Assembly (NCBI RefSeq): GCF_016863435.1
Contig: NZ_BOOW01000013.1
Location: forward strand, 124,001-188,000
DNA from: Sinosporangium siamense
Lineage (GTDB): Bacteria; Actinomycetota; Actinomycetes; Streptosporangiales; Streptosporangiaceae
Direction of reading: 5' to 3'
DNA length: 64,000 bases
The translations under genes were made by a program, and so were the position numbers. Below, piece by piece: positions 40,725-64,000 of this stretch. The stretch's first letter is position 1. Every line of letters begins with the position of its first letter. Under the pieces are notes generated by a model. That model made no database searches. It was given only the letters and a program-made list of their open reading frames with translations, and was not told the DNA's origin.

Positions 40725-41653
40725 TCGGCCGTCGGTTCGGTGACCGGCTGGCGGGTGAGGCGCTTGCGGAACACCCAGTACGTCCATCCCTGGTAGAGCA
40801 GGATGAACGGCAGAGCCGCGATGGCGATCCAGGTCATGATCGTGAGCGCGTAGGGCGCCGACGCCGCCTCCAGCAGGTTGATCCCCGGCATCGGCGTCGG
40901 CCACAAAGCCAGGAACACCGCCGCCGACACCCCGGCGATCGCGCCCGCCGTCGCCGTGAACGCCCACCCCTCGCGTCCCCGCCACACGGCCACGCCGGCC
41001 CCCGCCAGCGCCGTGACCGAGGCCCACACGAGCAGTGCCGTCAGCGCGTCGCCCCGGGGGACCGCGCTCAGCGCGAACGCCGCCAGGGGTACGGCGACGG
41101 CGACCGTGGCCAGTGCCGTACGGCGGGCCCGGACCCGCACCTCGCCCTCGGTCTTCAGGGCCACGAACACCGCGCCGTGCAGGACGAACACCACGAGCGA
41201 GAACACCCCGCCCAGCAGCGCCGCGGCGGCGCTGTCGAACAGCACGTCGGCGAAGACGCCGCCCCACAGGAACGCCGGCAGCAGGCTTCCCACGAGAATG
41301 CCGGTGTCACACCACATCCGGCCGCCCGGCCGGGTCACCTTGCCGCGCCACTCCAGGCCGACACCCCGCACGATCAGGCCGACCAGCACCAGCATCATGG
41401 CCAGGTAGAAGTGGCTGAGCATGCCCGCATACCAGGCGGGGAACGCGGCGAACATGCCGCCGATCGCGGTGATCAGCCAGACCTCGTTGCCGTCCCAGAC
41501 CGGGCCGATGGTGAGCAGCACCTGGCGGCGCTCGCTCTCGTCGCGGGACAACACCGGGGCGAGGATGCCGACGCCGAAGTCGAAGCCCTCAAGGACGAAG
41601 TAACCGGTCCAGAGCACGGCGACGAGGATGAACCAGACAGTGATGAGGTCCAT
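40703..41653 (-). CDS. cydB: Cytochrome bd-type quinol oxidase subunit II (copy 2)
   Basis: The 316-residue partner of the second CydA. It starts MDLITVWFILVAVLWTGYFV then LEGFDFGVGILAPVL and keeps GNEVWLITAIGGMFAAFPAW split as GNEVWLITAIG and FAAFPAWYAGML, in a pattern of eight or nine TM helices. It is 16 residues shorter than copy 1 and clearly paralogous. The start is 18 bp after the cydA stop, as expected for an operon transcribed from the CTAC-N5-GTAG region. The gene ends in the tandem 22-bp repeat. Confidence 0.93.
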   Translation of the reverse strand: MDLITVWFILVAVLWTGYFVLEGFDFGVGILAPVLSRDESERRQVLLTIGPVWDGNEVWLITAIGGMFAAFPAWYAGMLSHFYLAMMLVLVGLIVRGVGLEWRGKVTRPGGRMWCDTGILVGSLLPAFLWGGVFADVLFDSAAAALLGGVFSLVVFVLHGAVFVALKTEGEVRVRARRTALATVAVAVPLAAFALSAVPRGDALTALLVWASVTALAGAGVAVWRGREGWAFTATAGAIAGVSAAVFLALWPTPMPGINLLEAASAPYALTIMTWIAIAALPFILLYQGWTYWVFRKRLTRQPVTEPTAEVVPAKA

Positions 41654-41671
41654 GGCGAATCACAGGTCCTG

Positions 41672-43069
41672 TCAGTACATGAAGGTGAGTTGGCGGGCGT
41701 TGTCGTCGGTCTTGTCCGCCGCGGGGGTCTCGACCGGGATCGGCTCGGGACCCTTGCGGATGTAGCGGGCGAGCAGGATGCCCTCGGCCACCGCGAGCGC
41801 GCCGTACAGGAGGGTGAAGACGGTGAGCGAGATCGCGACCTCGGCGAACGTCACCCCCGGCGACACGCTGGCCGCCGTCAGCAGTTCACCTTGCACCACC
41901 CACGGCTGGCGTCCCATCTCGGCGAGCAGCCATCCGGCGATCACGGCGAGGAGGGGCAGCGGGAGCGACCAGAAGAGCACGCGGGCGAACCAGAAGGGGA
42001 CCTGCTCCTTCGACCGCGCACGCTTGCGGGTCAGCCAGAGGCCGATCAGCGACAATCCCACGGTCGCCAGGCCGAACACGATCATCACGCGGAACGACCA
42101 GTAGATGACCGGCATGTTGGGGCGGTAGTCCCCGGGGCCGAACTCCTGCTCGAAACGTTCCTGCAGGTCCTCCACACCGGAAATGGTGGAGTTCGTGTCG
42201 TAGGTCGCGAGGAAGCTGAGCATCCCGGGGATCTCCACCCCCGGCACCGGCGAGAAACCCGCCCCCTGGGTGTCGCGTTCCAGCCCCTCGGCCGCCGCCA
42301 GCTTCATCGGCTGCTGCTCGTGGAGGAGTTTGGCGGAGAAGTCCCCGCTGACCGCCACGATGACACCCGCGATCGCGGTCATCACGAGCGCGCCGCGCAG
42401 GCTCGACCGCCACATCGCCGCGTCCGGCCCGGTGGGGTCCTTGCGGCGCTCACGCATGATGCGGTAGCCGATCACGGCCAGAATGAACCCGCCGGCCACC
42501 ACGAACGACCCGCTCACCACGTGCGGGACCTGGACCAGCGCGGTCGAGTTGGTCAGCACGGCCCAGATGTCGGTCATGCGGGCTTTGCCGTTCTCGACGA
42601 CGTAGCCGACGGGGTGCTTCATCCAGGCGTTGGCGGCCAGGATGAAGTAGGCGGAGAGGTTCGACCCGATGGCGGCGGCCCAGATGGTGGCTAGGTGCAC
42701 GCGTTTGGGAAGCTTGTCCCAGCCGAAGATCCAGAGCCCGAGGAACGTCGACTCCAGGAAGAACGCGAGCAGCGCCTCCATGGCCAGCGGCGCACCGAAG
42801 ACGTCACCCACGAAGATCGAGTACTCGCTCCAGTTCATCCCGAACTGGAACTCCTGCACGAGCCCCGTGACCACACCCATGGCAAAATTGATCAAGAACA
42901 GCTTGCCGAAGAACTTGGTCAGACGGAGGTAGTGGTCTTTGCCTGTCCTGTGCCAGGCAGTCTGCAGACAGGCCACGAAGATGCCGAGGCCGATCGTCAG
43001 AGGTACGAACAGGAAGTGATACACGGTGGTGATGCCGAACTGCCACCGTGCGAGATCAAGTACGTCCAT
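41672..43069 (-). CDS. cydA: Cytochrome bd-type quinol oxidase subunit I (copy 2)
   Basis: A 465-residue CydA with canonical motifs: MDVLDLARWQFGITTVYHFL with the N-terminal haem histidine, quinol-loop QPMKLAAAEGLE and the intact signature GWLLAEMGRQPW (glycine present, unlike copy 1). It ends QLTFMY. ATG 43069 has GAGGGGAAG at good spacing. The start lies 24 bp from three tandem dyads at 43093-43135, so initiation is under tight control. As in copy 1, the cydDC haem/thiol transporter is absent from the window. Confidence 0.95.
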   Translation of the reverse strand: MDVLDLARWQFGITTVYHFLFVPLTIGLGIFVACLQTAWHRTGKDHYLRLTKFFGKLFLINFAMGVVTGLVQEFQFGMNWSEYSIFVGDVFGAPLAMEALLAFFLESTFLGLWIFGWDKLPKRVHLATIWAAAIGSNLSAYFILAANAWMKHPVGYVVENGKARMTDIWAVLTNSTALVQVPHVVSGSFVVAGGFILAVIGYRIMRERRKDPTGPDAAMWRSSLRGALVMTAIAGVIVAVSGDFSAKLLHEQQPMKLAAAEGLERDTQGAGFSPVPGVEIPGMLSFLATYDTNSTISGVEDLQERFEQEFGPGDYRPNMPVIYWSFRVMIVFGLATVGLSLIGLWLTRKRARSKEQVPFWFARVLFWSLPLPLLAVIAGWLLAEMGRQPWVVQGELLTAASVSPGVTFAEVAISLTVFTLLYGALAVAEGILLARYIRKGPEPIPVETPAADKTDDNARQLTFMY

Positions 43070-50687: not shown

Positions 50688-51050
50688 ATGGCACAGGTCG
50701 AACGGGCGAGAATCTTTCGCGAGGCGTGGATCGCGGGGGTGCGGAAGTACTATCCGGGCGAACCCAAAGGCGGATATGTCGCACCGTGGGAGGAGATGCC
50801 GGATTGGGAACGCGAGTGTGCCGCTGCTGTCTACGATCAGGTAATCGCCTTTATCGACGCCACCGGGGGAGGGGCCGCCAAGCTGACCCGTGGACAGAAG
50901 GGGAAGTTTGTGGCGGTTTGCTGGGTGGGGCAGATCTACAAGCATGTGCCGGATCCCAAACCTTCGTATGTCGCGGACTGGGACGACCTACCGAAGTGGC
51001 AGCAGGAGACGGACGCGGACATCTTTGAGCGCATCGAAGCGGAACGATGA
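50688..51050 (+). CDS. Small protein of unknown function linked to the WhiJ-like regulator
   Basis: A 120-residue protein with repeated aromatic turns: KYYPGEPKGGYVAPWEEMPD W and, about 60 residues later, IYKHVPDPKPSYVADWDDLP KW. The two segments look like tandem copies of one motif (P-x-x-x-YV-A-x-W-x-x-hP). It is acidic and has no TM helix. ATG 50688 has GAGGGAAGG upstream; GTG 50670 overlaps the regulator stop. Its place is where DUF397 genes are found in WhiJ-type clusters, so it may be an unrelated substitute. I recognise no family. Confidence 0.65.
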   Translation: MAQVERARIFREAWIAGVRKYYPGEPKGGYVAPWEEMPDWERECAAAVYDQVIAFIDATGGGAAKLTRGQKGKFVAVCWVGQIYKHVPDPKPSYVADWDDLPKWQQETDADIFERIEAER

Positions 51051-51195
51051 TGCTCTGACCCGGTTCGGTCGGGCCGCTTACCAGCCGGGCCTTTCGGGGG
51101 TAGAAGGTGAATGGGGCTTCCTCCCGGCCCCGGGCTTCCGGTGCCCTGCCGTACCGGCGCCAGTACTGGGCGATTAAGCGCCAGAAAAGAGGATA

Positions 51196-51237
51196 AAAGG
51201 GTGCACGGGCTCTGGTGGGAGAGCCCATGCACCCTTT
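51196..51237. terminator. Bidirectional hairpin terminator
   Basis: Arms AAAGGGTGCA-C-GGGCTC and GAGCCC-A-TGCACCCTTT pair over 16 of 17 positions around an 8-base loop. T-runs lie at both outer ends. It separates the 120-residue protein gene (+) from the USP gene (-). Confidence 0.88.
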
Positions 51238-51266
51238 CGTGCTATGTGAGACCCGCCGTCGGACCG

Positions 51267-52163
51267 TCAGGCGGTTTGTTCGATGGCGGGGTCTTCCGGT
51301 TCGTGGTAGCCGCTGGGGACGACCACGACCGGGCAGTGGGCGTGGTGGATGACGCCGCGGCTTATGGAGCCGAGGATGGCGGCGCGGAAGCCGCCGAGGC
51401 CGCGGGAGCCGACGACGACGAGGTCGGCCTGCTCGGAGGCGTCGGTGAGGGCGGACACGGGGTGGTCGGAGACGGTGGTCTTGGTGGCGGAGACCTCGGG
51501 GTGCCGGGCGAGCCAGGGGGCGAGGGCCTCCTTCACCGCCTCGTCGCTCTTGATGAACAGATCGTCGGTGGGCGGCGCGTAGCCCGCTGTGAAGGAGGTG
51601 ACCAGCGGATGCTGCCAGGCGTAGACCACTTCCAGGGTCGCGTTGCGGCGGGACGCCTCCTCGAAGGCGTAGTCCAGGGCCGCCTGGGCCTGGCGTGAGC
51701 CGTCGAAGCCGACGACGATCTTGCCGTGGAGGACGTCCGGGGTCTCCCGTACGACCACCACCGGGCAGGCGGCATGGCCGGCCAGCCCGACGCTGACCGA
51801 TCCCGCGAGCAGGCCGGTGAAGCCGCCGTGCCCGCGGTTGCCCACGACGACCTGGATCGCGTTGTCCGACTCCTTGAGCAGATTCTCGGTGATCTTCCCG
51901 GCGGGCATCCGGGTGTTGATCTCGATCCCGGGCGCCTGGACACGGGCGTATTCGACCGCCGCGGCAACCACACCTTCGCAATAGCCGGCCATGCCTTCGG
52001 TCGAAAGAGGCACCGGCTGGGAGGGCACGTCATAGATCCAGGACTCGCACACGTGCACGATGGTGAGCGGGCAGCCGCGCCGGGCGGCATCCTCCGCAGC
52101 CCATTTCACCGCAGTGGTCGCAGGTGCCGACCCATCCGTGCCAACTGCGATATATCCGGACAT
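51267..52163 (-). CDS. Universal stress protein with two UspA domains
   Basis: The 298-residue protein has two complete UspA domains. Each ends with the ATP-binding loop G-x2-G-x9-G: GNRGHGGFTGLLAGS in the first and GSRGLGGFRAAILGS in the second. ATG 52163 follows AGGAGC. Proteins like this are abundant in the mycobacterial DosR regulon. A DosR-like box at 52253-52272 lies between it and ackA, 90 bp from its start, so both genes may be induced together when oxygen is low. Confidence 0.9.
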   Translation of the reverse strand: MSGYIAVGTDGSAPATTAVKWAAEDAARRGCPLTIVHVCESWIYDVPSQPVPLSTEGMAGYCEGVVAAAVEYARVQAPGIEINTRMPAGKITENLLKESDNAIQVVVGNRGHGGFTGLLAGSVSVGLAGHAACPVVVVRETPDVLHGKIVVGFDGSRQAQAALDYAFEEASRRNATLEVVYAWQHPLVTSFTAGYAPPTDDLFIKSDEAVKEALAPWLARHPEVSATKTTVSDHPVSALTDASEQADLVVVGSRGLGGFRAAILGSISRGVIHHAHCPVVVVPSGYHEPEDPAIEQTA

Positions 52164-52252
52164 GAGTGGCTCCTCTCTTCTGTTGTGGACCAGCCACATC
52201 CCCACTGTCGCCCAGGTAGGGCACCGCCTCCAGAGCCCCCGGTCCCACTCCG

Positions 52253-52272
52253 TTAGGGACCTTCGACCCGAA
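52253..52272. promoter_or_regulatory. DosR/DevR-like box between usp and ackA
   Basis: TTAGGGACCTTCGACCCGAA keeps the consensus GGGAC-N2-T-N3-CCC frame (mycobacterial TTSGGGACTWWAGTCCCSAA). It lies 33 bp before the ackA start and 90 bp before the usp start. Confidence 0.65.
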
Positions 52273-52304
52273 TTCTCGGCACCGGTGTGGGGAGACTCAG
52301 CAAC

Positions 52305-53519
52305 GTGAGCGACCACGTCCTCGTCCTGAACATCGGCTCGTCGTCGATCAAATACGAGCTGCTCGACCCCGGCACCGGCGCCCGCACGGCAGTCGGCCTG
52401 GTGGAGCGCGTCGGCGACGGCGAAGGGCGGCTGATCCACCGCCCGAAAGACGGCGAAGCCTATGAAAGGCGCGAACCGTACCCCGACCACCAGGCCGCGA
52501 TGGACGCGGTCGTGGCGGCGTTCGCGGCTGCCGGGCCGGACCTGGCGAGCCTGCGGCTGCGCGCGATCGGCCACCGTGTGGTGCACGGCGGCACCCGCTT
52601 CCGCGAACCCACCGTGATCGACGAGAAGGTGATCGAGGAGATCGAGGCCCTCAGCCCGCTCGCCCCCCTGCACAACCCGGCCAACGTCACCGGCATCCGT
52701 ACGGCGATGCGCCTGTTTCCGGACATCCCGCAGGTGGCGGTGTTCGACACGGCGTTCCATCACACACTGCCGCCCGAGGCGTACACCTACGCGGTGCCCA
52801 GGGAATGGGCCAAGGAGCATGGTGTGCGGAGATACGGCTTCCACGGCACCTCCTACGCCTATGTGTGCCGCCACGCCGCGAAACTCCTGGGCCGCCCGCT
52901 CGGCGAACTCGACCTGATCGTGCTCCACCTCGGCAACGGCGCCAGCGCGGCGGCCGTGCACCACGGGCGCAGCGTCGACACCTCGATGGGCATGACCCCG
53001 ATGGAGGGGCTGGTCATGGGCACCCGCAGCGGCGACGTCGACCCCATCCTGCCGCTCTTCCTGCTCAGGGAACTCGGCCTCACCCCCGACGCGGCGGAAC
53101 AGGTGTTGTCCAGCGGAAGCGGCATGCGCGCCCTGACCGGCGAAACCGATATGCGCGACATCTGGCGACTGGCCGATGCGGGGGACGGGCACGCGCGCCT
53201 TGGGCTGGAGATCTACGCGCGCCGCATCCGCAAGTACATCGGCGCTTACTACGCCCTGCTCGGCCGCCTGGACGCCATCGTCTTCACCGCCGGCGTGGGC
53301 GAACACGACGCGCGCACCCGCGCCGCAGCCCTCAGGGGGCTGGAACGGCTCGGCCTCGTCGTCGATCAAAGTCGCAACGAGGCCGCCTCGACCGGTGCCC
53401 GCGCCGTCTCACCACCCGGCGCGGAGGTCGCCGTCCTGGTCGTCCCCACCGACGAGGAGGCGGAGATCGCCGCCGAGGCCCTCGCCGTACTGGGGTCGAA
53501 TCAGCGCCGGGATCAGTAA
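52305..53519 (+). CDS. ackA: Acetate kinase
   Basis: AckA makes ATP from acetyl phosphate and ADP. The 404-residue protein has the ASKHA motifs [15 protein letters not shown] near the start, [13 protein letters not shown] and [11 protein letters not shown] in the middle, and [13 protein letters not shown] near the end. GTG 52305 is chosen with GGGGAGA upstream; an in-frame GTG 52287 lies before it. It ends 7 bp inside the convergent phosphoketolase gene. Together the two would convert sugar phosphates to acetate plus ATP without oxygen. Confidence 0.93.
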
Positions 53520-55828
53520 GGCCAGACCCAGTCTCTGATGAACGCCGGGTCGTCTCCGTGCTCGCGGGTGTAGATGCGGGCGCGCAGCCGTTCGTCGGCC
53601 ATCTCCTGACGCAGATGGGCGGCCCTGGACATCAGATGCGGCACCCGGTCGATCACATCCATCACCAGGTGGAACCTGTCGATGTCGTTGAGCATCGCCA
53701 TATCGAAGGGGGTGGTCGTCGTGCCCTCCTCCTTGTAGCCGCGCACGTGGATGTTGCCGTGCCCGTTGCGGCGATAGGTGAGCCGGTGGATCAGCCACGG
53801 ATAGCCGTGGAAGTTGAAGATGATCGGCTTGTCACTCGTGAAAAGCGTGTCGAACTCGGCGTCCGACATGCCGTGCGGGTGCTCGGAAGCCGGTTGCAAT
53901 CGCATCAGATCCACCACGTTCACCACGCGCACCCGCAAGTCCGGCAGGTGCTCACGCAGGATCGCCGCCGCCGCGAGCGTCTCCAGGGTGGGCACATCGC
54001 CCGCACAGGCCAGCACGACGTCCGGATCCTCCCCGCCGTCGGTCGAGGCCCAGGTCAGGATGCCCGCCCCGCGTGCGCAGTGGGCGATCGCCTCCCGCAT
54101 GGAGAACAGGTCGAGCACCGGCTGCTTGCCCGCCACGACGACGTTCACATAGTCGCGTGAGCGCAGGCAGTGGTCGGCGGTGGAGAGGAGCGTATTGGCG
54201 TCCGGGGGCAGGTAGACACGCACGATCGACGACTTCTTGTTCATGACGACGTCCAGGAAGCCGGGATCCTGATGGCTGAACCCGTTGTGGTCCTGACGCC
54301 AGACATGTGATGACAGCAGGTAGTTCAACGACGCGATCGGCCGCCGCCAGGGGATGTTCTTCGCCGACTCCAGCCACTTGGCGTGCTGGTTGAACATCGC
54401 ATCCACGATGTGGATGAAAGCCTCATAGCAATTGAACAGCCCGTGCCGCCCGGTGAGCAGATATCCCTCCAGCCACCCCTGGCACAGGTGCTCGCTCAAA
54501 ACCTCCATCACCCGCCCATCCGGCGCGAGATGCTCATCGGTCTTCAGAATCTCCGCATCCCACGCACGATCGGTCACCTCGAACACCGCCGACAACCGGT
54601 TCGACGCGGTCTCATCCGGCCCCATCAGCCGGAAGTTCTCCGGATTGGCGGCGATCACATCCCGCAGGAACCCGCCTAGCACCCGCGTCGGCTCACTCGA
54701 CTCCGTCGCAGGCGACTTCACCTGTACGGCATAGGCCCGGAAGTCCGGCAGCGTGAGCGGGCGCAGCAACTCGCCCCCGTTGGCGTGCGGATTGGCGCTC
54801 ATCCGCCTCGTCCCGCGCGGCGCGGCCTCGGTCACCGTCACCGTGGGCCGCCCCTCGGCGTCGAACAGCTCGTCCGGCCGGTAGGACCGCATCCAGTCCT
54901 CCAGCATGGCCAGATGCACGGCGTCGTCCCTGACCTGCGACAGCGGCACCTGATGGGACCGCCACGTGCCCTCCACCGGTTTCCCGTCGACCTCGCGCGG
55001 GCCCGTCCACCCCTTGGGGGTGCGTAGCACGATCATGGGCGGCCGGGCCCCGGCCAGGCCGCTTTTGATCTCGGCGATCTGCTCGAACACGAGATCCAGC
55101 GTGCGGATCATCGTCTCGTGCATCACCGCCGGATCGTCCCCCGACACGATGTGCGGGCGGTAGCCGTACCCCTCGAAGAGTTTGATCAGCTCCACCTCGG
55201 GGATGCGGGCGAGCACGGTGGGGCCCGCGATCTTGTAGCCGTTGAGGTGGAGGATGGGGAGCACGATCCCGTCCCGCCGGGGATCGATGAACTTGTTCGA
55301 GTGCCAGCTCGCCGCCAGCGGGCCGGTCTCCGCCTCGCCGTCTCCGACCACACACGCGACCACCAGGTCCGGGTTGTCGAACGCCGCGCCGTAGGCGTGT
55401 GCCAGGGCGTAGCCGAGTTCACCCCCTTCGTGGATCGAACCGGGTGTCTCGGGCGCCACGTGGCTGGGGATCCCGCCGGGGAAGGAGAACTGCCGGAACA
55501 GCCGCCGCATCCCCTCAGCGTTCATCGCCACATCCGGATAAATCTCGCTATAGGTGCCTTCCAGCCAGGCGTGCGCCACCGCCGCCGGCCCCCCGTGCCC
55601 CGGGCCCGCGATGTAGATCATGTCCTGGCCGCGCTCGACGATCACCCGGTTGAGATGGGCGAAACAGAAGTTCAGCCCCGGTGTCGTCCCCCAGTGACCG
55701 AGCAGGCGGGGTTTCACGTGCTCCGGCCGCAGTGGCTCCTTCAGCAGCGGATTGTCCAGCAGGTAGATCTGCCCCACGGACAGATAGTTCGCGGCTCGCC
55801 AGAAGGCGTCGATCTCCTTGACATGCAT
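53513..55828 (-). CDS. xfp: Phosphoketolase (xylulose-5-P/fructose-6-P)
   Basis: This thiamine-diphosphate enzyme splits xylulose 5-phosphate or fructose 6-phosphate to acetyl phosphate. The 771-residue protein (usual 790-820) has the N-terminal signature [20 protein letters not shown], the family motif [18 protein letters not shown], the TPP-binding motif [18 protein letters not shown] with [18 protein letters not shown], and the C-terminal [19 protein letters not shown]. It converges with ackA, overlapping by 7 bp. A DosR-like box lies 34-53 bp upstream of its ATG. It supplies acetyl phosphate to AckA. Confidence 0.94.
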
Positions 55829-55861
55829 ACCTTCGACGCTTCCCCCGCTGCCTCCGGTAAA

Positions 55862-55881
55862 CCAGGGACCTTAGTCACCGG
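55862..55881. promoter_or_regulatory. DosR/DevR-like box upstream of xfp
   Basis: CCAGGGACCTTAGTCACCGG keeps GGGAC-N2-TTAGTC as in the mycobacterial box, with A for C in the second half-site. It sits 34 bp before the phosphoketolase ATG on the minus strand, with the TnpB element starting just beyond it. Confidence 0.6.
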
Positions 55882-55897
55882 GATCCGCCCAAGATGC

Positions 55898-55915
55898 CCT
55901 GGCCTTCAGGCCGGG
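55898..55915. mobile_element. IS200/IS605-type end hairpin
   Basis: CCTGGCCTTCAGGCCGGG forms an 8-bp stem with one G-T pair and a TC loop. GAGGA follows. Such CCTTCAGGCCGGGG-type hairpins are found at the ends of actinomycete IS605-group TnpB elements. It is upstream of the truncated tnpB. Sequence from 55916 to 56103 shows no other feature. Confidence 0.5.
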
Positions 55916-56103
55916 GAGGAAGGGGCGTCCCAGGTATGGCCCGGCGGAGCCGGGACGGCCCGCTGCACGATGTGCGGCACCTGCGCGTGCAAGGACCGGT
56001 GCCGATGTTTGGCCGTCTCCTTGAGCCACGCGTGAAAATCGCCGGGAGGACACAACGCGATCTGCCTCACGCCGGCCGCCCATGCCGTCTGCCTGATGGC
56101 AGA

Positions 56104-57024
56104 ATGATCGCTGTGGCGACACCGACAGAGCCGGAGACCGGGTACGCCCGGTACACCTACCGGCTCCGCGTGTCGTCCGCCGCGCGCGACGCCCTGCTTC
56201 GGGAGTGGGACCGGTGCCGGTGGGTGTGGAACGAGTGCGTCGCCTCCTCCCGCGCCGCGCATAAGGCCCGGCAGGAGTGTCGGCCCGCCCGGCTGGACGG
56301 GATGCTGACCGGCTGGCACGGCGAGCACGAGTGGCTGCGGGCGGGCGGCTCGGTGCCGCAGCAGCAGACCGTCCGCGACTTCGCCAGGTCCCGCGCCAAG
56401 GCCCTCAAGGACATCAAGGCCCGCCTGCCGATGCGACAGCGCGCGGGCATGCCCCGCTTCAAGAGGAAGGACCTGGCCGATCCGACGCTGAACTACACCC
56501 GGCGCGGTTTCCGGCTGAGGGACGGCCGCCTGCACCTCGCGGGCGGCATCGCGCTGGCGGTGGTGTGGTCCCGGGACCTGCCCGCCGACCCCTCCAGCGT
56601 CCGCGTCCACCGCGACGGCATCGGCCACTGGTACGCCTCCTTCGTCGTTCCCGCCGAGCTGCGGCCGCTGCCCGCCACGGGCAGGGTGATCGGCATCGAC
56701 TGGGGCGTGAGGCAGACCGCGACCACCACCAGCGACGAGCACGACCTGCCCCACGCCGGGCACGGCGGGAAGGCCGCCGCCAGGCTGGCCCGGTATCAGC
56801 GGATGACGGCCCGGCGGAGGCCCCCGGCGGGCAAGGCCGCCTCCCGGGGCTACCGCCGCGCGAGGAGGCAGGCCGCGAAGGTGCACAAGAAGGCCGCCCG
56901 GCAGCGGCAGGACACCGCCCGCAAGTGGGCCAAGCGCGTCGTGACCGACTTCGACGCCCTGGCGGTGGAGGACTTCCGGCCGAAGTTCCTGGCCAGGTCC
57001 ACCATGGCCCGCAAGGCCCTCTGA
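56104..57024 (+). pseudogene. 3'-truncated TnpB (RNA-guided nuclease of an IS200/IS605 element)
   Basis: The 306-codon frame carries the N-terminal TnpB region (RLRVSSAARDALLREWDRCRW) and the first two RuvC acids: D199 in GRVIGIDWGVRQ and E289 in DALAVEDFRPK. It stops after STMARKAL, before the zinc finger (CxxC pair) and the third RuvC aspartate, which lie about 90 residues further in intact TnpB. The 3' end and its overlapping guide-RNA region are replaced by the devR leader. It cannot be an active nuclease. A TnpA gene is absent. ATG 56104 is used. Confidence 0.8.
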
Positions 57025-57040
57025 TGGATACAGTCGAGAC

Positions 57041-57700
57041 ATGATTCGGGTGTTCCTGGTAGACGATCATGAGGTTGTCCGGCGCGGCGTCGCCGCCCTG
57101 CTCTCCTCCGAAGGCGACATCGAGATCGTCGGCGAGGCCGGCACGGCCGAACAGGCCATCGCGCGCATCCCCGCCGTCAAACCCGACGTCGCCGTGCTCG
57201 ACGTCCGCCTCCCCGACGGCAACGGCGTCACCGTCTGCCGGGAGGTCCGCTCGCGCGTGCCCGACATCGCCTGCCTCATGCTCACCTCCTTCACCGACGA
57301 CGACGCCCTCTTCGACGCCGTCATGGCCGGCGCCTCCGGCTATGTGCTCAAGCAGATCCACGGCTCCGACCTCGTCGGAGCGGTGCGCACCGTCGCCCGC
57401 GGCCAGTCGCTCCTCGACCCGCAGACCACCGCCGCGATGCTCCAGCGCATCCGCGACCACGACCGCAGGAAGGACCCCCTCTCCGCTCTCACCGACCAGG
57501 AACGCCAGATCTTCGAGCACATCGGAGAGGGCATGACCAACCGCCAGATCGGCGAGCGGCTCTTCCTCGCGGAGAAGACGGTCAAGAACTACGTGTCCAA
57601 CCTCCTCGCCAAACTCGACATGCAGCGCCGCACCCAGGTCGCGGCCCTCGCCGCCAAACTGAAGGCCGAACGACCCCACGAAGGGGACTTTCGCCCCTGA
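57041..57700 (+). CDS. devR: DevR/DosR-type response regulator
   Basis: A 219-residue NarL-type regulator that matches mycobacterial DevR closely, including residue numbers: acidic D8-D9, phospho-acceptor D54 (AVLDVRLPDG), T82 (MLTSFT) and K104 (YVLKQI), and DNA-contact residues K179, K182 and N183 in LAEKTVKNYV. In mycobacteria it turns on dormancy genes under hypoxia, NO or CO when phosphorylated by DosS/DosT. No such kinase gene lies in the window. It starts 17 bp after the truncated TnpB, so its promoter may be borrowed from that element. A DosR box overlaps its stop. Confidence 0.92.
   Translation: MIRVFLVDDHEVVRRGVAALLSSEGDIEIVGEAGTAEQAIARIPAVKPDVAVLDVRLPDGNGVTVCREVRSRVPDIACLMLTSFTDDDALFDAVMAGASGYVLKQIHGSDLVGAVRTVARGQSLLDPQTTAAMLQRIRDHDRRKDPLSALTDQERQIFEHIGEGMTNRQIGERLFLAEKTVKNYVSNLLAKLDMQRRTQVAALAAKLKAERPHEGDFRP
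57683..57698. promoter_or_regulatory. DosR/DevR-like box overlapping the devR stop
   Basis: GGGGACTTTCGCCCCT matches the mycobacterial core GGGACTTTNGNCCCT exactly, 36 bp before the PNPOx-like gene. This is the best of three such sites here. Confidence 0.8.
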
Positions 57701-57733
57701 CGTTTATGGCGGAAGCGGCGCGATGCTGATGCC

Positions 57734-58150
57734 ATGAATGTCGATTCGGCCGGCCTGCAGGTCCTCACCAGGACCGAATGCGTGGAGCTGCTGTCCAGCG
57801 TCCCCGTCGGGCGCATCGTCTTCACCGACCGCGCCCTCCCTGCGGTGCAGCCGGTCAACTTCCTGGTCGTGGACGGCCACATCGTCATCCGCACCGGCCA
57901 GGGCTCCAAACTCGCCGCCGCCGCGCGGGACGCGGTGGTGGCGTTCGAGGTGGACGAGTTCGACGCCGCGATGTGGACGGGGTGGTCGGTCACCGTCATC
58001 GGCCACGCCCGGGCCGTGGTGGACCCGCAGGAGGTCGCCCGCCTCTCCCTCCTGCCGCTCATCCCGTGGGCACCGGGAGAACGCAACCAATACGTCGTGG
58101 TGCGCATCGAGGACATCTCCGGGCGCCGCATACGCGACGGCGGCCTGTAG
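57734..58150 (+). CDS. Pyridoxamine-5'-phosphate-oxidase-family flavin-binding protein
   Basis: A 138-residue split-beta-barrel protein. Typical segments are LSSVPVGRIVFTDRALPAV, QPVNFLVVDGHIVIRTGQGS and the end RIEDISGRRI. These FMN- or F420-binding proteins are frequent members of the DosR-like regulon and may detoxify or reduce quinone-like substrates. The gene lies 36 bp beyond a perfect DosR-type box that starts at 57683, so it is a likely target of the DevR protein encoded just upstream. Confidence 0.85.
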   Translation: MNVDSAGLQVLTRTECVELLSSVPVGRIVFTDRALPAVQPVNFLVVDGHIVIRTGQGSKLAAAARDAVVAFEVDEFDAAMWTGWSVTVIGHARAVVDPQEVARLSLLPLIPWAPGERNQYVVVRIEDISGRRIRDGGL

Positions 58151-58225
58151 ATCCGCACTGCTTCTCCCGCTCCGTCTTCCCCCGGCACCGCATTGCCGCA
58201 GGTGAAGGAGTCTGTGTTACTGTCC

Positions 58226-58238
58226 GGGACATTGTCCC
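58226..58238. promoter_or_regulatory. GGGACA-T-TGTCCC dyad before the aldehyde dehydrogenase gene
   Basis: A perfect palindrome 29 bp upstream of the ATG, with an extra TGTCC half-site at 58221-58225 and GTGTTA/TAACAC outside it. The TGTCCC half-site recurs before the dipeptidase gene, so one regulator probably controls both. Confidence 0.65.
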
Positions 58239-58266
58239 ATGTGTTAACACGGATGGAGAACGGCAG

Positions 58267-59709
58267 ATGCGTTCGCCGGCACCCCGGAATCTGATCGACG
58301 GCGGCTTCGAGGAACCCCATGGAGACGAGGTCGTGGAACGGGTCTCCCCGCACGACCCCGACCTGGCCTTCGAGTGCGGATCGTCGAGTGAGGAGCAGCT
58401 CTCCCGGGCGATCGAGACCGCCGGATCCCGCGGCCGGCAGTGGGCTGCGGCGGGCCCTGCCGTACGCTCCGACGCTCTGGCCGCCCTGGCCTCCGCGCTG
58501 CGCGGCGGAGCCGCCGGCCTGGCCGGCGCGCTGGTGGAGGAGCTGGGCAAGACCCGCAGAGAGGCGCTCGGCGAGATCATGAACGCCGCCAGGATCCTCG
58601 ACTTCTACGCGGGCGGTGTGTGGCGGGACACCGGACGGTCGTTCTCCTCCGTGAAGGAGCGCACCACGATCGTCACCACCCGGGAACCGCTCGGCGTCGT
58701 CGCGGCACTCGCTCCCTGGAACTTCCCGGTCAACCTGTCCGTGCTGAAGATCGCCCCCGCCCTCGCCGCGGGCAACTCGGTGGTGCTCAAGCCCGCGCCT
58801 CAGGCGGCTCGATCGTCCACCGAGCTCGCGCACATCATGAGCACGGTGCTGCCGGAGGGGGTGCTCAACGTCGTGCAGGGTGGCGCCGGGACGGGGGCGG
58901 CCCTGGCTGCAGACCCGAGGGTCGGCGGAGTGTCGTTCACCGGGTCGACCGCGGTGGGAAGGCATGTGGCCGCGTCCGCGGCGGCGCGGGGTGTGCCTTT
59001 CGTGTGCGAGATGGGCGGCAAGAACACCGTCGTCGTGGCCGAGGACGCCGATCTGCCGGCGGCGGTGGGGGCCGTCCTCGCCGGCGCTTTCGGCATGGCC
59101 GGGCAGAAGTGCACGGCGACGAGCCGGGTGTCCGTGCACGCCGACCGATATGAGGAGTTTCTCGACCTGCTTCTCGCACGGGTCGCGGAGTGGGTCGTCG
59201 GCGATCCGCGTGAGGAGTCCACCGTGGTGGGGCCCCTGATCGATGAGCCGAGCCGCGACCGGGTGCTCGGGTTGGTGGAGGACGCGGTGGCGGAGGGCGC
59301 GCGCATGCTGACCCCGGCGGCGTCGCCCGTTCCCGGGCACCTGCGTGGTTCCTATCTGAGCCCGGTGGTGCTCGACGGAGTGCACGCCTCGAGCACGATC
59401 TGCCTGCAGGAGGTCTTCGGCCCGGTGCTGGCCGTTCACCGCGGCAAGGACATGGAGGAAGCGCTGGAGTTCGCCAACGCGGGCGACTACGGGCTGGTGG
59501 GGTCGATCTTCACGCGGGACCTCGGCCGGGCCGCGGAGTTCGGCGCCCGGCTGGAGTGCGGCACGGTGCTGGTGAACCAGCCGACGGCGGGGCTTGAGTT
59601 CCATGTGCCCTTCGCCGGATGGAAGGGCTCGGGGCAGGGCGGGAGCGAGCAGAGCGACGCCTCGCTGCGCTCGTATTCCCGGGAGAAGGTGAGCTACCTG
59701 ACGTGGTGA
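58267..59709 (+). CDS. NAD(P)-dependent aldehyde dehydrogenase
   Basis: A 480-residue aldehyde dehydrogenase. The catalytic residues are C282 (GQKCTATSR) and E248 (CEMGGKN); the cofactor segment is PWNFPVNLSVLKIAPALAAG, and the bridge FTGSTAVGRHV. Its GQKCTATSR form is like alpha-ketoglutarate-semialdehyde-type ALDHs. The ATG at 58267 is preceded by GGAG. It begins the catabolic cluster and shares TGTCCCA-type operator sequences with the M19 gene 93 bp after its stop. Substrate unknown. Confidence 0.92.
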   Translation: MRSPAPRNLIDGGFEEPHGDEVVERVSPHDPDLAFECGSSSEEQLSRAIETAGSRGRQWAAAGPAVRSDALAALASALRGGAAGLAGALVEELGKTRREALGEIMNAARILDFYAGGVWRDTGRSFSSVKERTTIVTTREPLGVVAALAPWNFPVNLSVLKIAPALAAGNSVVLKPAPQAARSSTELAHIMSTVLPEGVLNVVQGGAGTGAALAADPRVGGVSFTGSTAVGRHVAASAAARGVPFVCEMGGKNTVVVAEDADLPAAVGAVLAGAFGMAGQKCTATSRVSVHADRYEEFLDLLLARVAEWVVGDPREESTVVGPLIDEPSRDRVLGLVEDAVAEGARMLTPAASPVPGHLRGSYLSPVVLDGVHASSTICLQEVFGPVLAVHRGKDMEEALEFANAGDYGLVGSIFTRDLGRAAEFGARLECGTVLVNQPTAGLEFHVPFAGWKGSGQGGSEQSDASLRSYSREKVSYLTW

Positions 59710-59718
59710 CACCCCTCG

Positions 59719-59769
59719 TTGACCTGTTGAAACCATTCTGGGTACGCTGTCCCAGAATTATTGGGACAG
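59719..59769 (+). promoter_or_regulatory. Promoter with overlapping TGTCCCA dyad before the M19 gene
   Basis: TTGACC (59719-59724), 18-bp spacer, TACGCT (59743-59748). The arms CTGTCCCA (59747-59754) and TGGGACAG (59762-59769) straddle the expected transcription start, typical for repression. The half-site is the same as at 58226. Confidence 0.7.
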
Positions 59770-59801
59770 TGGGCCAACATGCCCTCGCGGAGGAGTGATC
59801 A

Positions 59802-60791
59802 ATGCTTATCGACGCCCTGCAGTTCAGCAAGCCCGGCAGGGAGCGATTCCAGGAGTGGCGTGACGCCGGGCTCGCGGCGGTTCACGTGACGACTGCCATC
59901 TGGGAGGACTCCACCGAGACCATGCGCGAGCTCGGCCGCTGGCAGCGCCTGCTCACCGAGCACGCCGACCTGCTGACGGAGGGGCGCGGCGCGGACGACA
60001 TCCGCGCCGCCAAGGCCGAGGGCCGCACCGCCGTCGTGTTCGGCTTTCAGAACAGCACCCCCTTCGAGGACGACCTCGACCTGGTCGGCGCCTTCCACCA
60101 GGCCGGCGTGCGGATCGCCCAGCTCACGTACAACACGCAGAACTCCGCGGGCGCCGGCTGCTGGGAGCACGAGGACACGGGCCTCTCCCGCACCTACGGC
60201 GTCAATCTCATCCGTGAGATGAACCAGGTCGGCATGCTGGTCGACGTCTCCCACTGCAACGAGCGCACCTGTCTGGAGGCGTTCGAGGCCTCCGAGAAGC
60301 CTGTCGCGATCACCCACGCGAACCCGCGCGACTACGTCGGCGGCGACGTCGAGCTCGCCGTGCGCAACAAGTCGGCTGACGTGCTCAAGACCATGGCCCA
60401 GCAGGACGGCGTCATCGGACTCAGCATGTATCCCCGGCTCGCGCCCAACGGCACCGATTGCAGCCTCGACGACTTCTGCGACATGGTCGCCTGGACGGTC
60501 GACCTCATCGGCGTCGACCACGTCGGTCTCGGCTCGGACTTCTACACCGGCCACGGCGACGAGGAGCTGGTGTGGTGGCGGCAGGGCCGCTGGAGCCGCT
60601 CGCCCATGGTGCCGATCTCCGGCGTGGTCGAGTTCCCGGGCTGGTTCGACGCGGCCAAGGGCTACCGCGACGTCCTCGACGGCCTCCGCAAGCGCGGCAT
60701 GACGGACGAGGAGGTCGCCAAGGTCGCCGGGGAGAACTGGCTGCGCCTTTTCGACGCCACTTTTGGCACGTTCCACAAGCAGGCCGGCTGA
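59802..60791 (+). CDS. M19-family dipeptidase-like metalloenzyme, non-canonical first metal motif
   Basis: A 329-residue amidohydrolase-fold protein related to renal dipeptidase. Matching parts are GAGCWEHEDTGLS, VGMLVDVSHCNERT, and AITHANPRDY, which carry the glutamate and the two later histidine ligands, then GVDHVGLGSDF. The usual N-terminal HxD pair is not there: the start is MLIDALQFSKPGR. This resembles a subgroup with unknown substrates rather than true dipeptidases. GGAGGAG precedes ATG 59802. Coupled with the flavoprotein gene it may hydrolyse an amide, lactam or lactone. Confidence 0.85.
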   Translation: MLIDALQFSKPGRERFQEWRDAGLAAVHVTTAIWEDSTETMRELGRWQRLLTEHADLLTEGRGADDIRAAKAEGRTAVVFGFQNSTPFEDDLDLVGAFHQAGVRIAQLTYNTQNSAGAGCWEHEDTGLSRTYGVNLIREMNQVGMLVDVSHCNERTCLEAFEASEKPVAITHANPRDYVGGDVELAVRNKSADVLKTMAQQDGVIGLSMYPRLAPNGTDCSLDDFCDMVAWTVDLIGVDHVGLGSDFYTGHGDEELVWWRQGRWSRSPMVPISGVVEFPGWFDAAKGYRDVLDGLRKRGMTDEEVAKVAGENWLRLFDATFGTFHKQAG

Positions 60792-60804
60792 TGGCGGGCC
60801 GGGC

Positions 60805-62418
60805 ATGAGAGGACGTACGGCGGAAGCCGAGTTCGACGTCGTCGTCCTGGGCGGCGGGCACAACGGGCTCGTGGCCGCCGCCTACCTCGGCAAGGCGGGA
60901 CTGCGGACCGCACTCGTCGAGGCCCGCGAAACCCTCGGCGGCCCCTGCGGGGCCTACGAGTTCCTGCCGGGCCGCCGGCTGTCCTTCACCAACTCCCCGG
61001 GGTCCCTCGATCCCGCCGTGGTGGCCGAGCTGGACCTTGCCGGCTTCGGCCTGCGGTTCGTCCCGGCCGATCCCACGGTGGTGCAGCGTTACGACGACGG
61101 CTACTTCCTCGGCTGGCGCGACCAGGCGCGGGTCGAGCGGCAGCTCGACGCCTTCGCCCCCGGCGAGGGCGCACGCTACCGGCGGCTGGTGGACGATCTG
61201 GAACGGCTCGGCCGCACGCTCGGGGTCTCCCTCGCCGAGCCGTCGCCCTCCCTCGCCGAGCTCGCCCGCCGGCTGCGGACCCCCGAGGACGAGAGGCTGT
61301 TCACCTCCGTCTTCCTGCGCGGCCTCACTGAACTCCTCGACGACTACCTGGTCGCCGACGAGACCAAGGCGCTGCTCACCATGCTGGCGCTCAACGCCCA
61401 CCTGGTGCCGCCGTCCGCGCCCGGCACGGCGGTGGGGCTCATGATGCGGCCGTTCGCCCTCGCCTCACGTGCGCGGCTCTCCGCCGACGACCCCGGCCGG
61501 GTCGCCCTCCGGGGGTCGACCGGCCTCCCCGTCGGGTCGATGAGCGCCATCGTGGACGCCCTTGAGCGGTGTTGCCGCAGCCACGGCGTGCACATCCGGA
61601 CCGGGTCCCCGGTCACCGACGTCGTCCACGCCGCGGGGCGGGTGCGAGGAGTGGCGGTCGCGGGTGGCGACGTGCTCTCCGCCGACCGTGTCGTGGCCGC
61701 CGTCAGCCCGGTGCATCTCTTCCGCGACCTGCTGGACGACGAGGCGCTGGGACCGGAGGTCCGGCGCGCGGTGGCGTCGAGGCGCATCCGGGGCTCTGCC
61801 TTCAAGGTCCTCCTTGAGGTGGACGGGCTTCCGCCCTACGCCGACCTGCCGGAGGGGGTCTCCCAGACGCAGGCGGCGACGTGTCAGTTCCGCCTCGGCG
61901 GCTCACCGGCCGGCATCGAGCGGTCCATCCACGACGCACTGGCCGGGATACCTTCCCAGAAGCCCCTCATGTGGGGGCTTATCCCTACGATCACCTCACC
62001 TCATCTGACTCCCGGCGACACGCATCTCATCAGTGTGAACGCCTGGCATGCGCCGTACGACCTGCGTGAGGGCGATTGGGAGAGCGAGACCGACAAATTC
62101 GGACGGCGGTGTGTGGACGAGCTCTCGCGGCTCATGCCGGGACTCGCCGACCGCATCGTCGACCACCGTTTCATGGGCCCGGTCGAGATCGAACGCGAAC
62201 TCGGCCTGGTGGAGAGCAACATCACGCACGGCGACATGCTGCCGGGGGACCTCTTCGCCACACGGCCCCACCCCGAGATCGCCGGTTACCGCACGCCGCT
62301 TCGCGGCTTCTACCTCAGCGGCTCGGGCACATGGCCCGGCGGTTACGTCACCGGCATCCCCGGACGTAATGCGAGCCGGGCCGTACTGAGCGACGCCCTC
62401 AACGAGAGAAAGCACTAG
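60805..62418 (+). CDS. Phytoene-desaturase-like FAD-dependent oxidoreductase
   Basis: A 537-residue flavoprotein with the N-terminal dinucleotide fold VVLGGGHNGLVAAAYLGKAG at about 13-32 and the C-terminal FAD segment GFYLSGSGTWPGGYVTGIPG. It belongs to the PYROXD2/CrtI-like amine-oxidase superfamily, which desaturates or isomerises hydrocarbon chains or oxidises small amines. ATG 60805 lies 14 bp after the M19 stop, with an intervening 5-codon mini-frame (60791) that could mediate translational re-initiation. It seems to be the oxidative step in the cluster. Confidence 0.87.
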   Translation: MRGRTAEAEFDVVVLGGGHNGLVAAAYLGKAGLRTALVEARETLGGPCGAYEFLPGRRLSFTNSPGSLDPAVVAELDLAGFGLRFVPADPTVVQRYDDGYFLGWRDQARVERQLDAFAPGEGARYRRLVDDLERLGRTLGVSLAEPSPSLAELARRLRTPEDERLFTSVFLRGLTELLDDYLVADETKALLTMLALNAHLVPPSAPGTAVGLMMRPFALASRARLSADDPGRVALRGSTGLPVGSMSAIVDALERCCRSHGVHIRTGSPVTDVVHAAGRVRGVAVAGGDVLSADRVVAAVSPVHLFRDLLDDEALGPEVRRAVASRRIRGSAFKVLLEVDGLPPYADLPEGVSQTQAATCQFRLGGSPAGIERSIHDALAGIPSQKPLMWGLIPTITSPHLTPGDTHLISVNAWHAPYDLREGDWESETDKFGRRCVDELSRLMPGLADRIVDHRFMGPVEIERELGLVESNITHGDMLPGDLFATRPHPEIAGYRTPLRGFYLSGSGTWPGGYVTGIPGRNASRAVLSDALNERKH

Positions 62419-62421
62419 AGC

Positions 62422-62736
62422 ATGGAATTCCTCGTCAACATCCGCATCCAATGGCCCGCGGACGGCGACCCCGAGAAGTACGCCAGGATCGCCGAGGAGG
62501 AGAGGGCCCTGGCCGGCAAGCTCGCGGAAGCCGGTCACCTCATCCGCATGTGGCGTGTCCCCGGCAGGCGGGAGAACTGGGGCCTCTGGCGGGCGGAGAG
62601 CCCGAGCGAACTGCACGAGATCCTGTCCCGGCTGCCCGTCTGGCCGTGGATGGACATCACCGTGCACCCCCTCGGCTGGCACCCGGTGGACCCCGCGCCG
62701 GAGCACTCGAGACCGCAGGTCACGCTGCCGCACTGA
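62422..62736 (+). CDS. Muconolactone-delta-isomerase-like protein
   Basis: A 104-residue protein with the ferredoxin-like fold of CatC: MEFLVNIRIQWPADGDPEK and LWRAESPSELHEILSRLPVW then MDITVHPLGWHP. In the beta-ketoadipate pathway CatC moves the double bond of muconolactone; the relative here has a catalytic region MWRVPGRRENWGLWRA and may act on another lactone. It is 4 bp after the flavoprotein gene and ends the operon just before a GC-rich hairpin. Confidence 0.87.
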   Translation: MEFLVNIRIQWPADGDPEKYARIAEEERALAGKLAEAGHLIRMWRVPGRRENWGLWRAESPSELHEILSRLPVWPWMDITVHPLGWHPVDPAPEHSRPQVTLPH

Positions 62737-62748
62737 GAAGACCGAGAG

Positions 62749-62785
62749 AGGGGCCCGGCTGCCACTGGGGCGCCGCCGGGCCCCT
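62749..62785 (+). terminator. GC-rich hairpin terminating the catabolic operon
   Basis: Arms AGGGGCCCGGC / GCCGGGCCCCT (11 bp, perfect) around a 15-base loop, 13 bp after the muconolactone-isomerase-like stop. TTGG follows. Confidence 0.7.
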
Positions 62786-62810
62786 TGGCACGTTTCCCGC
62801 CGCTTTGCCG

Positions 62811-62897
62811 AGCATCGCGGCAAGACGAGCACCGCGGCAAGACGAGCACTGCGGCAAGCCGAGCACCGCGGCAAGACGGACGAGCACCGCGAAAAGG
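62811..62897. repeat. 17-bp tandem repeats, four and a half copies
   Basis: AGCACCGCGGCAAGACG-like units start at 62811, 62828, 62845, 62862 and (partial, after a 4-bp insertion) 62883, with one to two changes each. They lie between two hairpins of convergent genes, without spacers. Confidence 0.85.
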
Positions 62898-62920
62898 GGC
62901 CGGGAACAGTCCCGGCCCCT
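62895..62920 (-). terminator. Intrinsic terminator of the oligopeptide ABC operon
   Basis: AGGGGCCGGGA / TCCCGGCCCCT (11 bp, perfect) with ACAG loop. On the minus strand it is followed by TTTT, as expected for a terminator after the ATPase gene that ends at 62940. Confidence 0.85.
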
Positions 62921-62939
62921 CCCCTTGCGTGTGGGGTGC

Positions 62940-63944
62940 TCAGACCGTGGCGGGTGCCAGGGCCGCGATCACGGCGGGGTCGTCGTGACGGTGGCAGGCC
63001 ACCGTGTGACCGTCGGACACGGCCACCGTCGCGGGCTCCGCCGTACGGCACTGGTCCGTCGCGAACGGGCACGTCCGCTGGAAGCGGCAGCCGGGCGGCG
63101 GGGCGACGGGGTCGGGCGGCTCCGCGCGGGGCCGGGTGTCGGTGATGTTCTCCTTCCTGCGGGGGTCGGGAAGGGGGACGGCCCGCAGGAGGGCGTGGGT
63201 GTACGGATGACGGGGAGAGGCGAACAGGTCGTCGCGGGAGGCGGCCTCCATGATGCGCCCGCCGTACATCACGACGACCCGGTCGGAGATGTGGCGCACG
63301 ACGCTGAGGTCGTGTGCGATGAACAGGTAGCTCAGGTCGAGCCGGTCGCGCAGGTCCTGGAGCAGGTTGACGATCTGCCCCTGGATGCTGACGTCGAGCG
63401 CGGAGACGATCTCGTCGCAGACGATGAACCGGGGCTCCACGGCCAGGGCGCGGGCGATCGCCACCCGCTGGCGCTGACCGCCGGAGAGCTCGTGCGGATA
63501 GCGCCGTGCGAGCTCGGGGCGCAGACCGACCTGGTCGAGCAGTTCCGCGACACGCTTGCCGACCGCTTCCCTGGGGACGATCCTGTGCACGGTCAGCACC
63601 TCGCGCAGCACCGCGCCGACCGTCATCCGCGGGTTGAGGCTGGCGAAGGGGTCCTGGTAGACGATCTGCGCGAGGCGGGGCAGCGAGCCGTCGGCCCGCC
63701 GCGTGGCGAGGTCCTCGCCGTGGAGGCGCACCCTGCCCCCGGTGACGGGCGCCAGGCCGATGAGCGCACGGCCCGTGGTGCTCTTGCCGCTGCCGCTCTC
63801 GCCGACCAGGCTGACGATGCCGCGGGCCGGCACGGTGAACGACACCCCGTCGACGGCGCGGGCGGCGGCGACGACCCGGCGCAGCACCCCGGAACGCACG
63901 GGGAAGTGCACACGCAGGTCCTCGACCACGATGTCGGATGTCAT
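62940..63944 (-). CDS. Oligopeptide/dipeptide-type ABC transporter ATP-binding protein (DppF/OppF-like)
   Basis: The 334-residue ATPase has Walker A GESGSGKSTTG, signature LSGGQRQRVAIARAL, Walker B FIVCDEIVSALD and H-loop AHDLSVV. The C-terminal oligopeptide-ABC region follows, with cysteines in GCRFQRTCPFATDQCRT and VACHR, which hold an Fe-S cluster or zinc in this family. ATG 63944 overlaps the upstream gene's stop by 4 bp. It faces the catabolic operon and probably imports its substrate (inference). Confidence 0.93.
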   Translation of the reverse strand: MTSDIVVEDLRVHFPVRSGVLRRVVAAARAVDGVSFTVPARGIVSLVGESGSGKSTTGRALIGLAPVTGGRVRLHGEDLATRRADGSLPRLAQIVYQDPFASLNPRMTVGAVLREVLTVHRIVPREAVGKRVAELLDQVGLRPELARRYPHELSGGQRQRVAIARALAVEPRFIVCDEIVSALDVSIQGQIVNLLQDLRDRLDLSYLFIAHDLSVVRHISDRVVVMYGGRIMEAASRDDLFASPRHPYTHALLRAVPLPDPRRKENITDTRPRAEPPDPVAPPPGCRFQRTCPFATDQCRTAEPATVAVSDGHTVACHRHDDPAVIAALAPATV

Positions 63945-64000
63945 GGGGTTTCCTCCAGCACGACGGGACAGCGGACACGGTGATCGGGCGCCCCGCCGGC
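63941..64000 (-). CDS. C-terminal end of an ABC transporter ATP-binding protein (DppD/OppD-like), partial
   Basis: The last 19 codons and TGA of the gene upstream of the ATPase: the peptide end AGGAPDHRVRCPVVLEETP has the HRVRCP tail of the DppD-type family. The stop overlaps the next start as ATGA. The remainder lies beyond the window. Confidence 0.7.
   Translation of the reverse strand, partial: AGGAPDHRVRCPVVLEETP

Follow-up and report, generated by a model that had tools for sequence, protein, structure and literature searches.

How would an actinomycete make ATP when oxygen fails, and could a known oxygen-responsive switch govern the enzymes that it would use? The question is raised by a locus of Sinosporangium siamense (Streptosporangiaceae), in which the genes for a universal stress protein (usp), acetate kinase (ackA), phosphoketolase (xfp), a DevR/DosR-type response regulator (devR) and a PNPOx-like protein lie together at positions 51,267 to 58,150 of the window, that is, of the whole stretch of 64,000 nucleotides that was analyzed (contig NZ_BOOW01000013.1, here C13, C13:124001-188000, forward strand). 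We describe, as found by computation, these genes, the boxes upstream of them with their conservation and spacing, a kinase gene and an insertion. Our reading, to which we give a probability of roughly 0.78, is that the locus forms the central part of a low-oxygen regulon of the DevRS (DosRS/OsdKR) type with phosphoketolase among its targets.

The regulator and its candidate binding sites

The devR gene (57041-57700, plus strand) encodes a NarL-type response regulator with Response_reg and GerE domains (Pfam). Its best match in the PDB is Mycobacterium tuberculosis DevR, 3c3w (276 bits, residues 1-213, gapless), followed by VraR at 157 bits. The residues D54, T82, K104, K179, K182 and N183, which a preliminary description made from the sequence alone had listed, are all there, and the DNA-contact lysines and the recognition helix match those of M. 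tuberculosis DevR; the assignment of the regulator to the DevR/DosR type is thereby supported. Three sites resembling the mycobacterial DosR box, also claimed in that description, were found where it had placed them. Scored as matches among the 12 informative letters of GGGACNWWNGTCCC, with the reversed palindrome as control, each reaches 11/12: TTAGGGACCTTCGACCCGAA between usp and ackA (52253-52272), CCAGGGACCTTAGTCACCGG 5′ of xfp (55862-55881), ancestrally common to xfp and devR, and AAGGGGACTTTCGCCCCTGA 5′ of the PNPOx-like gene, where it overlaps the end of the devR coding sequence (57681-57700), none of them being assigned a strand. The last contains an exact GGGACTTTNGNCCC at 57684-57697, so that the exact core match attributed to it holds. 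Counted on the sequence, the 20-base box starts at -53 from the start codon of both xfp and the PNPOx-like gene and at -109 from that of usp; for ackA the distance is -52, assuming the GTG at 52305 as its start.

Stronger evidence for the boxes comes from their conservation in relatives than from the odds of their clustering in the genome. A match to Xfp was found in 107 of 120 family genomes searched (S. siamense included), the 120 being drawn from a larger group. Upstream regions were taken from 60 of the 107, one region each, and from 80 named loci, which are the best 80 of at least 588 relatives and have the taxonomic spread of the closest loci. Some genomes occur twice among these 140 loci, and 136 remained after the removal of duplicates, recognized by having their last 140 bases in common, and of one locus that had no sequence upstream. 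Class labels were taken from record titles, and those of some metagenome-assembled genomes are possibly wrong; the family class holds one such genome titled Streptosporangiales. A box of at least 11/12 was present upstream of xfp at 21 of 67 family loci (mean of 0.35 in shuffles, which moved two-base blocks, 20 per locus) and at 8 of 26 loci from other Actinobacteria (shuffle mean 0.10), the bearers among the latter being Micromonospora and kin, Pseudonocardia, Phytoactinopolyspora, Nocardiopsis and Cellulomonas. None was found at the 4 Mycobacterium/Mycolicibacterium loci (shuffle mean 0.05) or at the 39 loci labelled non-actinobacterial (0.10), and the reversed control gave 0 in every class. 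At 10/12 or better, 32 family loci carry the xfp box (reversed control 4, shuffles 4.6); 16 of these 32 begin exactly at -56 and 19 at -54 to -57, while 10 of the 21 that reach 11/12 begin at -56. Because boxes recur at the loci of relatives, the window boxes are credible, and the xfp box is credible as a real site.

The remaining genes were scored for a box of at least 11/12 within 200 bp upstream, in sets that include the window's own locus where present, as well as paralogues. The box was found at 29 of 44 PNPOx-like loci (reversed control 0/44), in 21 of the 29 at -52 to -54, and at 24 of 37 devR loci; devR and PNPOx-like boxes lie mostly at -52 to -55. It also precedes a small doxX-like gene, labelled by eye, at 8 of 9 loci, an acg-like nitroreductase gene at 5 of 12 and devS at 4 of 19, with no match in the control for any of these or for devR. 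For usp the count was 11 of 35, with 1 in the control; several usp boxes of relatives lie at -111 to -149, like the window's -109, and others at -64 to -89. The six other Usp loci of the S. siamense genome have no upstream box of 10/12 or better. The comparison with Streptosporangiales relatives, proposed in the preliminary description as a check, thus finds the xfp and PNPOx-like boxes recurring across genera at like spacing.

The promoters differ in their anatomy. Of the devR starts, 38 of them distinct, a box of at least 10/12 with its 20-mer beginning at -65 to -41 was found at 26, and each of the 26 carries TANNNT at -13 or -12 of the ATG, which suggests that the devR promoters are leaderless, with the activator over the -35 region. 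No TANNNT was found at -13/-12 among the box-bearing promoters of PNPOx-like genes (27) and xfp (21), which may have a weaker, activator-dependent -10 element. In the window, the candidate leaderless -10 element of devR is TACAGT at 57029-57034 (plus strand; -12 to -7).

Gene order, the tnpB insertion and the kinase

The full-length xfp gene (53513-55828, minus strand; Pfam XFP_N, XFP and XFP_C) encodes a protein 81-84% identical to the Xfp of Microtetraspora niveoalba, Streptosporangium minutum and Acrocarpospora pleiomorpha. Beside it lies ackA (52305-53519, plus strand, GTG start assumed; PF00871, 461 bits), followed on its other side by usp (51267-52163, minus strand), which encodes two Usp domains (PF00582, 2 stretches, 197 bits); the PNPOx-like gene (Pyridox_ox_2) is found beyond devR at 57734-58150, on the plus strand (PF12900, 100 bits). 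A search of 51000-59000 against Rfam gave nothing at the gathering threshold. Genes resembling the cydAB oxidase genes (by eye) are located at about 41000-43069, some 8 kb to the left of usp; the best site in the 250 bp upstream of the cydA-like gene at 43069 scores 9/12, and this gene is not claimed as a target there.

Between the xfp box and devR lies the remnant of an IS605-type tnpB (about 55882-57019, ends approximate, plus strand; Pfam OrfB_IS605, partial), whose open frame runs from 55894 to 57024 with its 3′ end cut. Compared with the intergenic region of the sister genome G001, both the devR-side stretch with the -10 element and the xfp-side stretch with the box are kept, and about 1.1 kb of tnpB remnant stands between them. 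A search of the genome for a second tnpB copy that would fix the ends yielded one match, of 145 bases at 70% (40 of 308 candidates scored). Because the remnant severs devR from the box, no site above 8/12 is left in the 600 bp of the window devR's own promoter, and the insertion probably ended devR autoregulation in S. siamense. Weighed with the box-bearing devR loci of relatives (24/37), the missing box is treated as a loss in one genome and not as a sign that the regulator stands outside the DevR/DosR class.

A DevS-type kinase gene is found outside the window, 6.8 kb beyond its end and 13 kb away from devR (C13:194790-196514). Its product has the Pfam domains GAF, GAF, HisKA_3 and HATPase, and the best PDB matches of the first GAF are DevS GAF-A domains. 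A His and a Tyr are kept in the alignment, and we take them, by an offset from a mutant position, to stand at His149 (proximal) and Tyr171 (distal). The protein is therefore described here as a candidate heme-binding kinase that may pair with the window DevR. His149 and Tyr171 are named as DevS heme residues in PMC4082495. The kinase gene is preceded by a doxX-like gene (by eye; no Pfam family) and a nitroreductase gene (Pfam) with weaker boxes of 10/12 at about -132 and -116, close to the -147 and -118 of the corresponding boxes in G001.

In G001 the genes form a single run. The acg-like nitroreductase, doxX-like and devS genes come first, followed on the opposite strand by PNPOx-like and devR; the box, xfp and ackA complete it. 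The divergent devR and xfp genes, about 90 bp apart with one common box, are found there as well as in G039, G057, G093, G105 and Acrocarpospora pleiomorpha. The two genes lie within 35 kb of each other in 19 of the 95 family genomes that have both (S. siamense included), a hand count for which many assemblies are too fragmented to show the distance.

In S. siamense a block of at least about 12 kb, from window 58267-63978 to about C13:194.7 kb and made up of genes that look unrelated, parts the PNPOx-like gene from devS. It holds genes for an aldehyde dehydrogenase, an M19 dipeptidase, an amine oxidase, an Amdase-like protein and an IclR regulator (Pfam), and for a peptide ABC transporter (by eye). 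Since the PNPOx-like gene and devS adjoin in G001, the block looks inserted. A different arrangement is seen in G108 (L312, 3437-15010), where a 12/12 box separates devR from divergent cydAB-like genes (by eye); a doxX-like gene, another box and xfp come next. On the other side are GNAT/acyl-CoA synthetase-like and nitroreductase-like genes (by eye), the former near devS. A box-like site in S. siamense (C29:80375-80388) lies about 70 bp 5′ of a gene of this GNAT/acyl-CoA synthetase-like type (by eye).

Proposed mechanism and competing explanations

We propose that the heme-GAF kinase encoded 13 kb away would sense the loss of oxygen (or nitric oxide or carbon monoxide) and phosphorylate DevR, which would then bind the palindromic boxes, whose centres lie about 43-46 bp 5′ of the xfp and PNPOx-like start codons and, in the ancestral arrangement, of that of devR. 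Seated over the -35 region, DevR would activate weak, probably leaderless promoters. Xfp, encoded by the most distinctive of the proposed targets, would cleave pentose or fructose phosphates to give acetyl phosphate, from which the acetate kinase encoded by the gene adjoining xfp would make ATP without respiration, and the locus as a whole would be expected to respond to hypoxia. In S. siamense the autoregulatory half of this circuit would have been severed by the tnpB insertion, which left devR its -10 element and not its box.

Several results weigh against this reading. Absence of enrichment had been named in the preliminary description, which proposed a genome-wide motif scan, among the outcomes that would count against its claim, and the scan indeed gave none: GGGACNWWNGTCCC with at most 1 mismatch occurs at 50 sites in 8.86 Mb, compared to 61 for the reversed palindrome, and other genome-wide counts (21 vs 57, and 49 vs 100 with both strands counted) were likewise without enrichment over the reversed control. 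A loose scan of the window (14-mer, at most 3 mismatches) gave 59 matches, below the 78.6 of shuffles, and thus no signal. Because many of the 50 sites are intragenic by a rough call of open reading frames, which also assigned the usp/ackA box to a spurious frame, we claim no broad regulon in the S. siamense genome, where the regulon looks local. No clear tandem second box was seen in the window; cooperative binding to tandem sites is described for M. tuberculosis DevR in passages of PMC4973870. In the family, about two thirds of the xfp loci are without a box of 11/12, and 8 of the 21 boxes at that threshold lie well upstream of -57. Furthermore, none of 11 ackA genes has a box of even 10/12, and the best site in the usp/ackA intergenic regions of four relatives scores 9/12 (best in G001, 9). 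Because relatives' ackA genes lack the box, ackA as a putative target draws on the S. siamense genome and is unsupported by relatives, and of the preliminary assignment of boxes to usp/ackA, xfp and the PNPOx-like gene it is the xfp and PNPOx-like parts that recur.

How often DevR and the xfp box occur together is a further such point. A genome was counted as having no DevR if it gave no match at E 1e-70 and none above 40% identity at E 1e-45 (at most 150 candidates scored per genome). A box of at least 10/12 at -200 to 0 was then found in 27 of 51 genomes with DevR vs 2 of 9 without (P = 0.09), a box of 11/12 in 18 of 51 vs 1 of 9 (P = 0.15) and a box at -60 to -50 in 15 of 51 vs 2 of 9 (P = 0.50), a weak trend over these 60 genomes. 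The xfp box at -56 is kept in G058 (L210) and G100 (L198), two genomes that yielded no DevR-type protein, which may reflect a recent loss of DevR, a protein missed by the search or the action of a different regulator.

This last possibility leads to the explanation that the boxes are real sites of a different NarL/LuxR-type regulator with a similar palindrome, and that the proximity of DevR is incidental. Such an explanation would account for G058 and G100 and for a co-occurrence that falls short of significance, and the S. siamense genome has many loosely similar regulators (171 first-look candidates). Nevertheless we consider it improbable, given that the devR promoters themselves bear the same motif at the same spacing, that a single box is common to divergent devR and xfp in six loci, and that the DNA-contact lysines and recognition helix of the window protein match those of M. 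tuberculosis DevR, while the motif is that given for DosR in passages of PMC2947987. An extremely improbable explanation is that the boxes of the window arose by chance, in a genome rich in GC, and that the cluster is an ordinary metabolic neighbourhood. The lack of enrichment, either at the loose threshold or against the reversed palindrome, is what chance would give, the third box overlaps the coding end of devR, and the ackA box is not conserved. However, three of the 50 genome sites are the window boxes, which fall within 5.44 kb beside devR, and simple arithmetic puts the chance of this at about 5e-6 if the 5.4-kb stretch is named beforehand, and at about 0.02 if a triplet of this kind may fall at any place in the genome. 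The boxes of xfp, the PNPOx-like gene and devR are moreover conserved from genus to genus with similar spacing, and the reversed control gave 0 at 11/12 for these three genes; this conservation footprint makes a chance origin of the xfp and PNPOx-like boxes unlikely.

A further explanation accepts a DevR regulon and changes its purpose: xfp would serve mainly carbon economy or acetyl-CoA supply, not ATP, and usp and the PNPOx-like gene would be the true hypoxia genes. We regard this as somewhat unlikely. In its favour, ackA is not a conserved box target, and at many family xfp loci a match to ackA is missing from the surrounding 4 kb or so. On the other hand, ackA adjoins xfp in the window, in G001 and at many distant loci, and in G108 xfp comes soon after the cydAB-like genes (by eye) from which the regulator diverges, an order that a respiration-sparing set would be expected to show. 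The pairing of substrate-level ATP synthesis by Xfp and AckA with a hypoxia response, as put forward in the preliminary description, is accordingly supported in part: on the side of xfp, whose box recurs and whose candidate regulator has a DevS-type kinase gene 13 kb away, and not on the side of ackA. The hypoxia response itself is predicted from homology.

We also considered an acetyl-phosphate feedback, which we think quite improbable as an addition to the proposed regulon. DevR would activate xfp from the shared divergent promoter, the resulting acetyl phosphate would act as phosphodonor to DevR, perhaps also through acetylation of K182, and AckA would drain the pool to ATP. If this were true, the hypoxia switch would be a metabolic latch, able to stay on without the kinase. 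Passages of PMC5069765 report that OsdR is phosphorylated in vitro with acetyl phosphate, and those of PMC4973870 consider acetyl phosphate for M. tuberculosis DevR, with phosphorylation itself dispensable on overexpression. Acetylation of K182 is reported in PMC5999986 to inhibit DosR binding, the opposite direction to the feedback idea.

Relation to known systems and significance

The locus resembles the DevRS/DosRS-DosT system of M. tuberculosis in its regulator, which best matches 3c3w, in the DevS GAF-A type of the kinase GAF, in its DosR-type box and in the Usp and nitroreductase genes that lie nearby and carry boxes. It is unlike that system in three respects: the window xfp has a box, whereas 0 of 4 mycobacterial xfp loci do, as had been anticipated when the wiring was described as outside the classical mycobacterial DosR set; in six relatives devR and xfp are transcribed divergently; and the S. 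siamense kinase is encoded about 13 kb from the regulator. Closer parallels are seen with OsdK/OsdR of Streptomyces coelicolor (SCO0203/SCO0204), for which the passages of PMC5069765 give as predicted targets Usp, the nitroreductase-family SCO0215 and the PNPOx gene SCO0214, the last with a box at -50, compared to -53 for the window PNPOx-like gene; the OsdR consensus, AGGGCCGATCGGCCCT, is more GC-rich than the window boxes. Since they are among the predicted OsdR targets in that source, the Usp, nitroreductase and PNPOx-like parts of the present set are of a known kind and expected from the OsdR regulon. Phosphoketolase and acetate kinase have 0 occurrences in the main text of the OsdR paper (PMC5069765). 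For Rhodococcus equi, passages of PMC2947987 report homologues of the DosR box and, in another context, the Xfp gene REQ21880; the same passages, the box list of Table S6 aside, make no tie between the two. No report of xfp as a DevR/DosR target was found among the titles and abstract openings listed from the open-licence literature. The system is thus of the known DevRS/OsdKR kind, and since the OsdR text is silent on it, the four mycobacterial loci lack the box and no report was found in the literature so covered, its phosphoketolase target is apparently new.

The tnpB insertion provides a natural loss of autoregulation that can be compared with sister species, and the divergent one-box promoter, occurring in non-pathogens, is a system for studying DevR activation. 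In bacteria that are generally regarded as aerobes, the proposed regulon would place a fermentative enzyme that yields ATP under a familiar oxygen-sensing switch. The join of box and xfp recurs at like spacing in many genera, and the regulon would offer a concrete and testable answer to the question of how such actinomycetes might supply themselves with ATP when oxygen fails.

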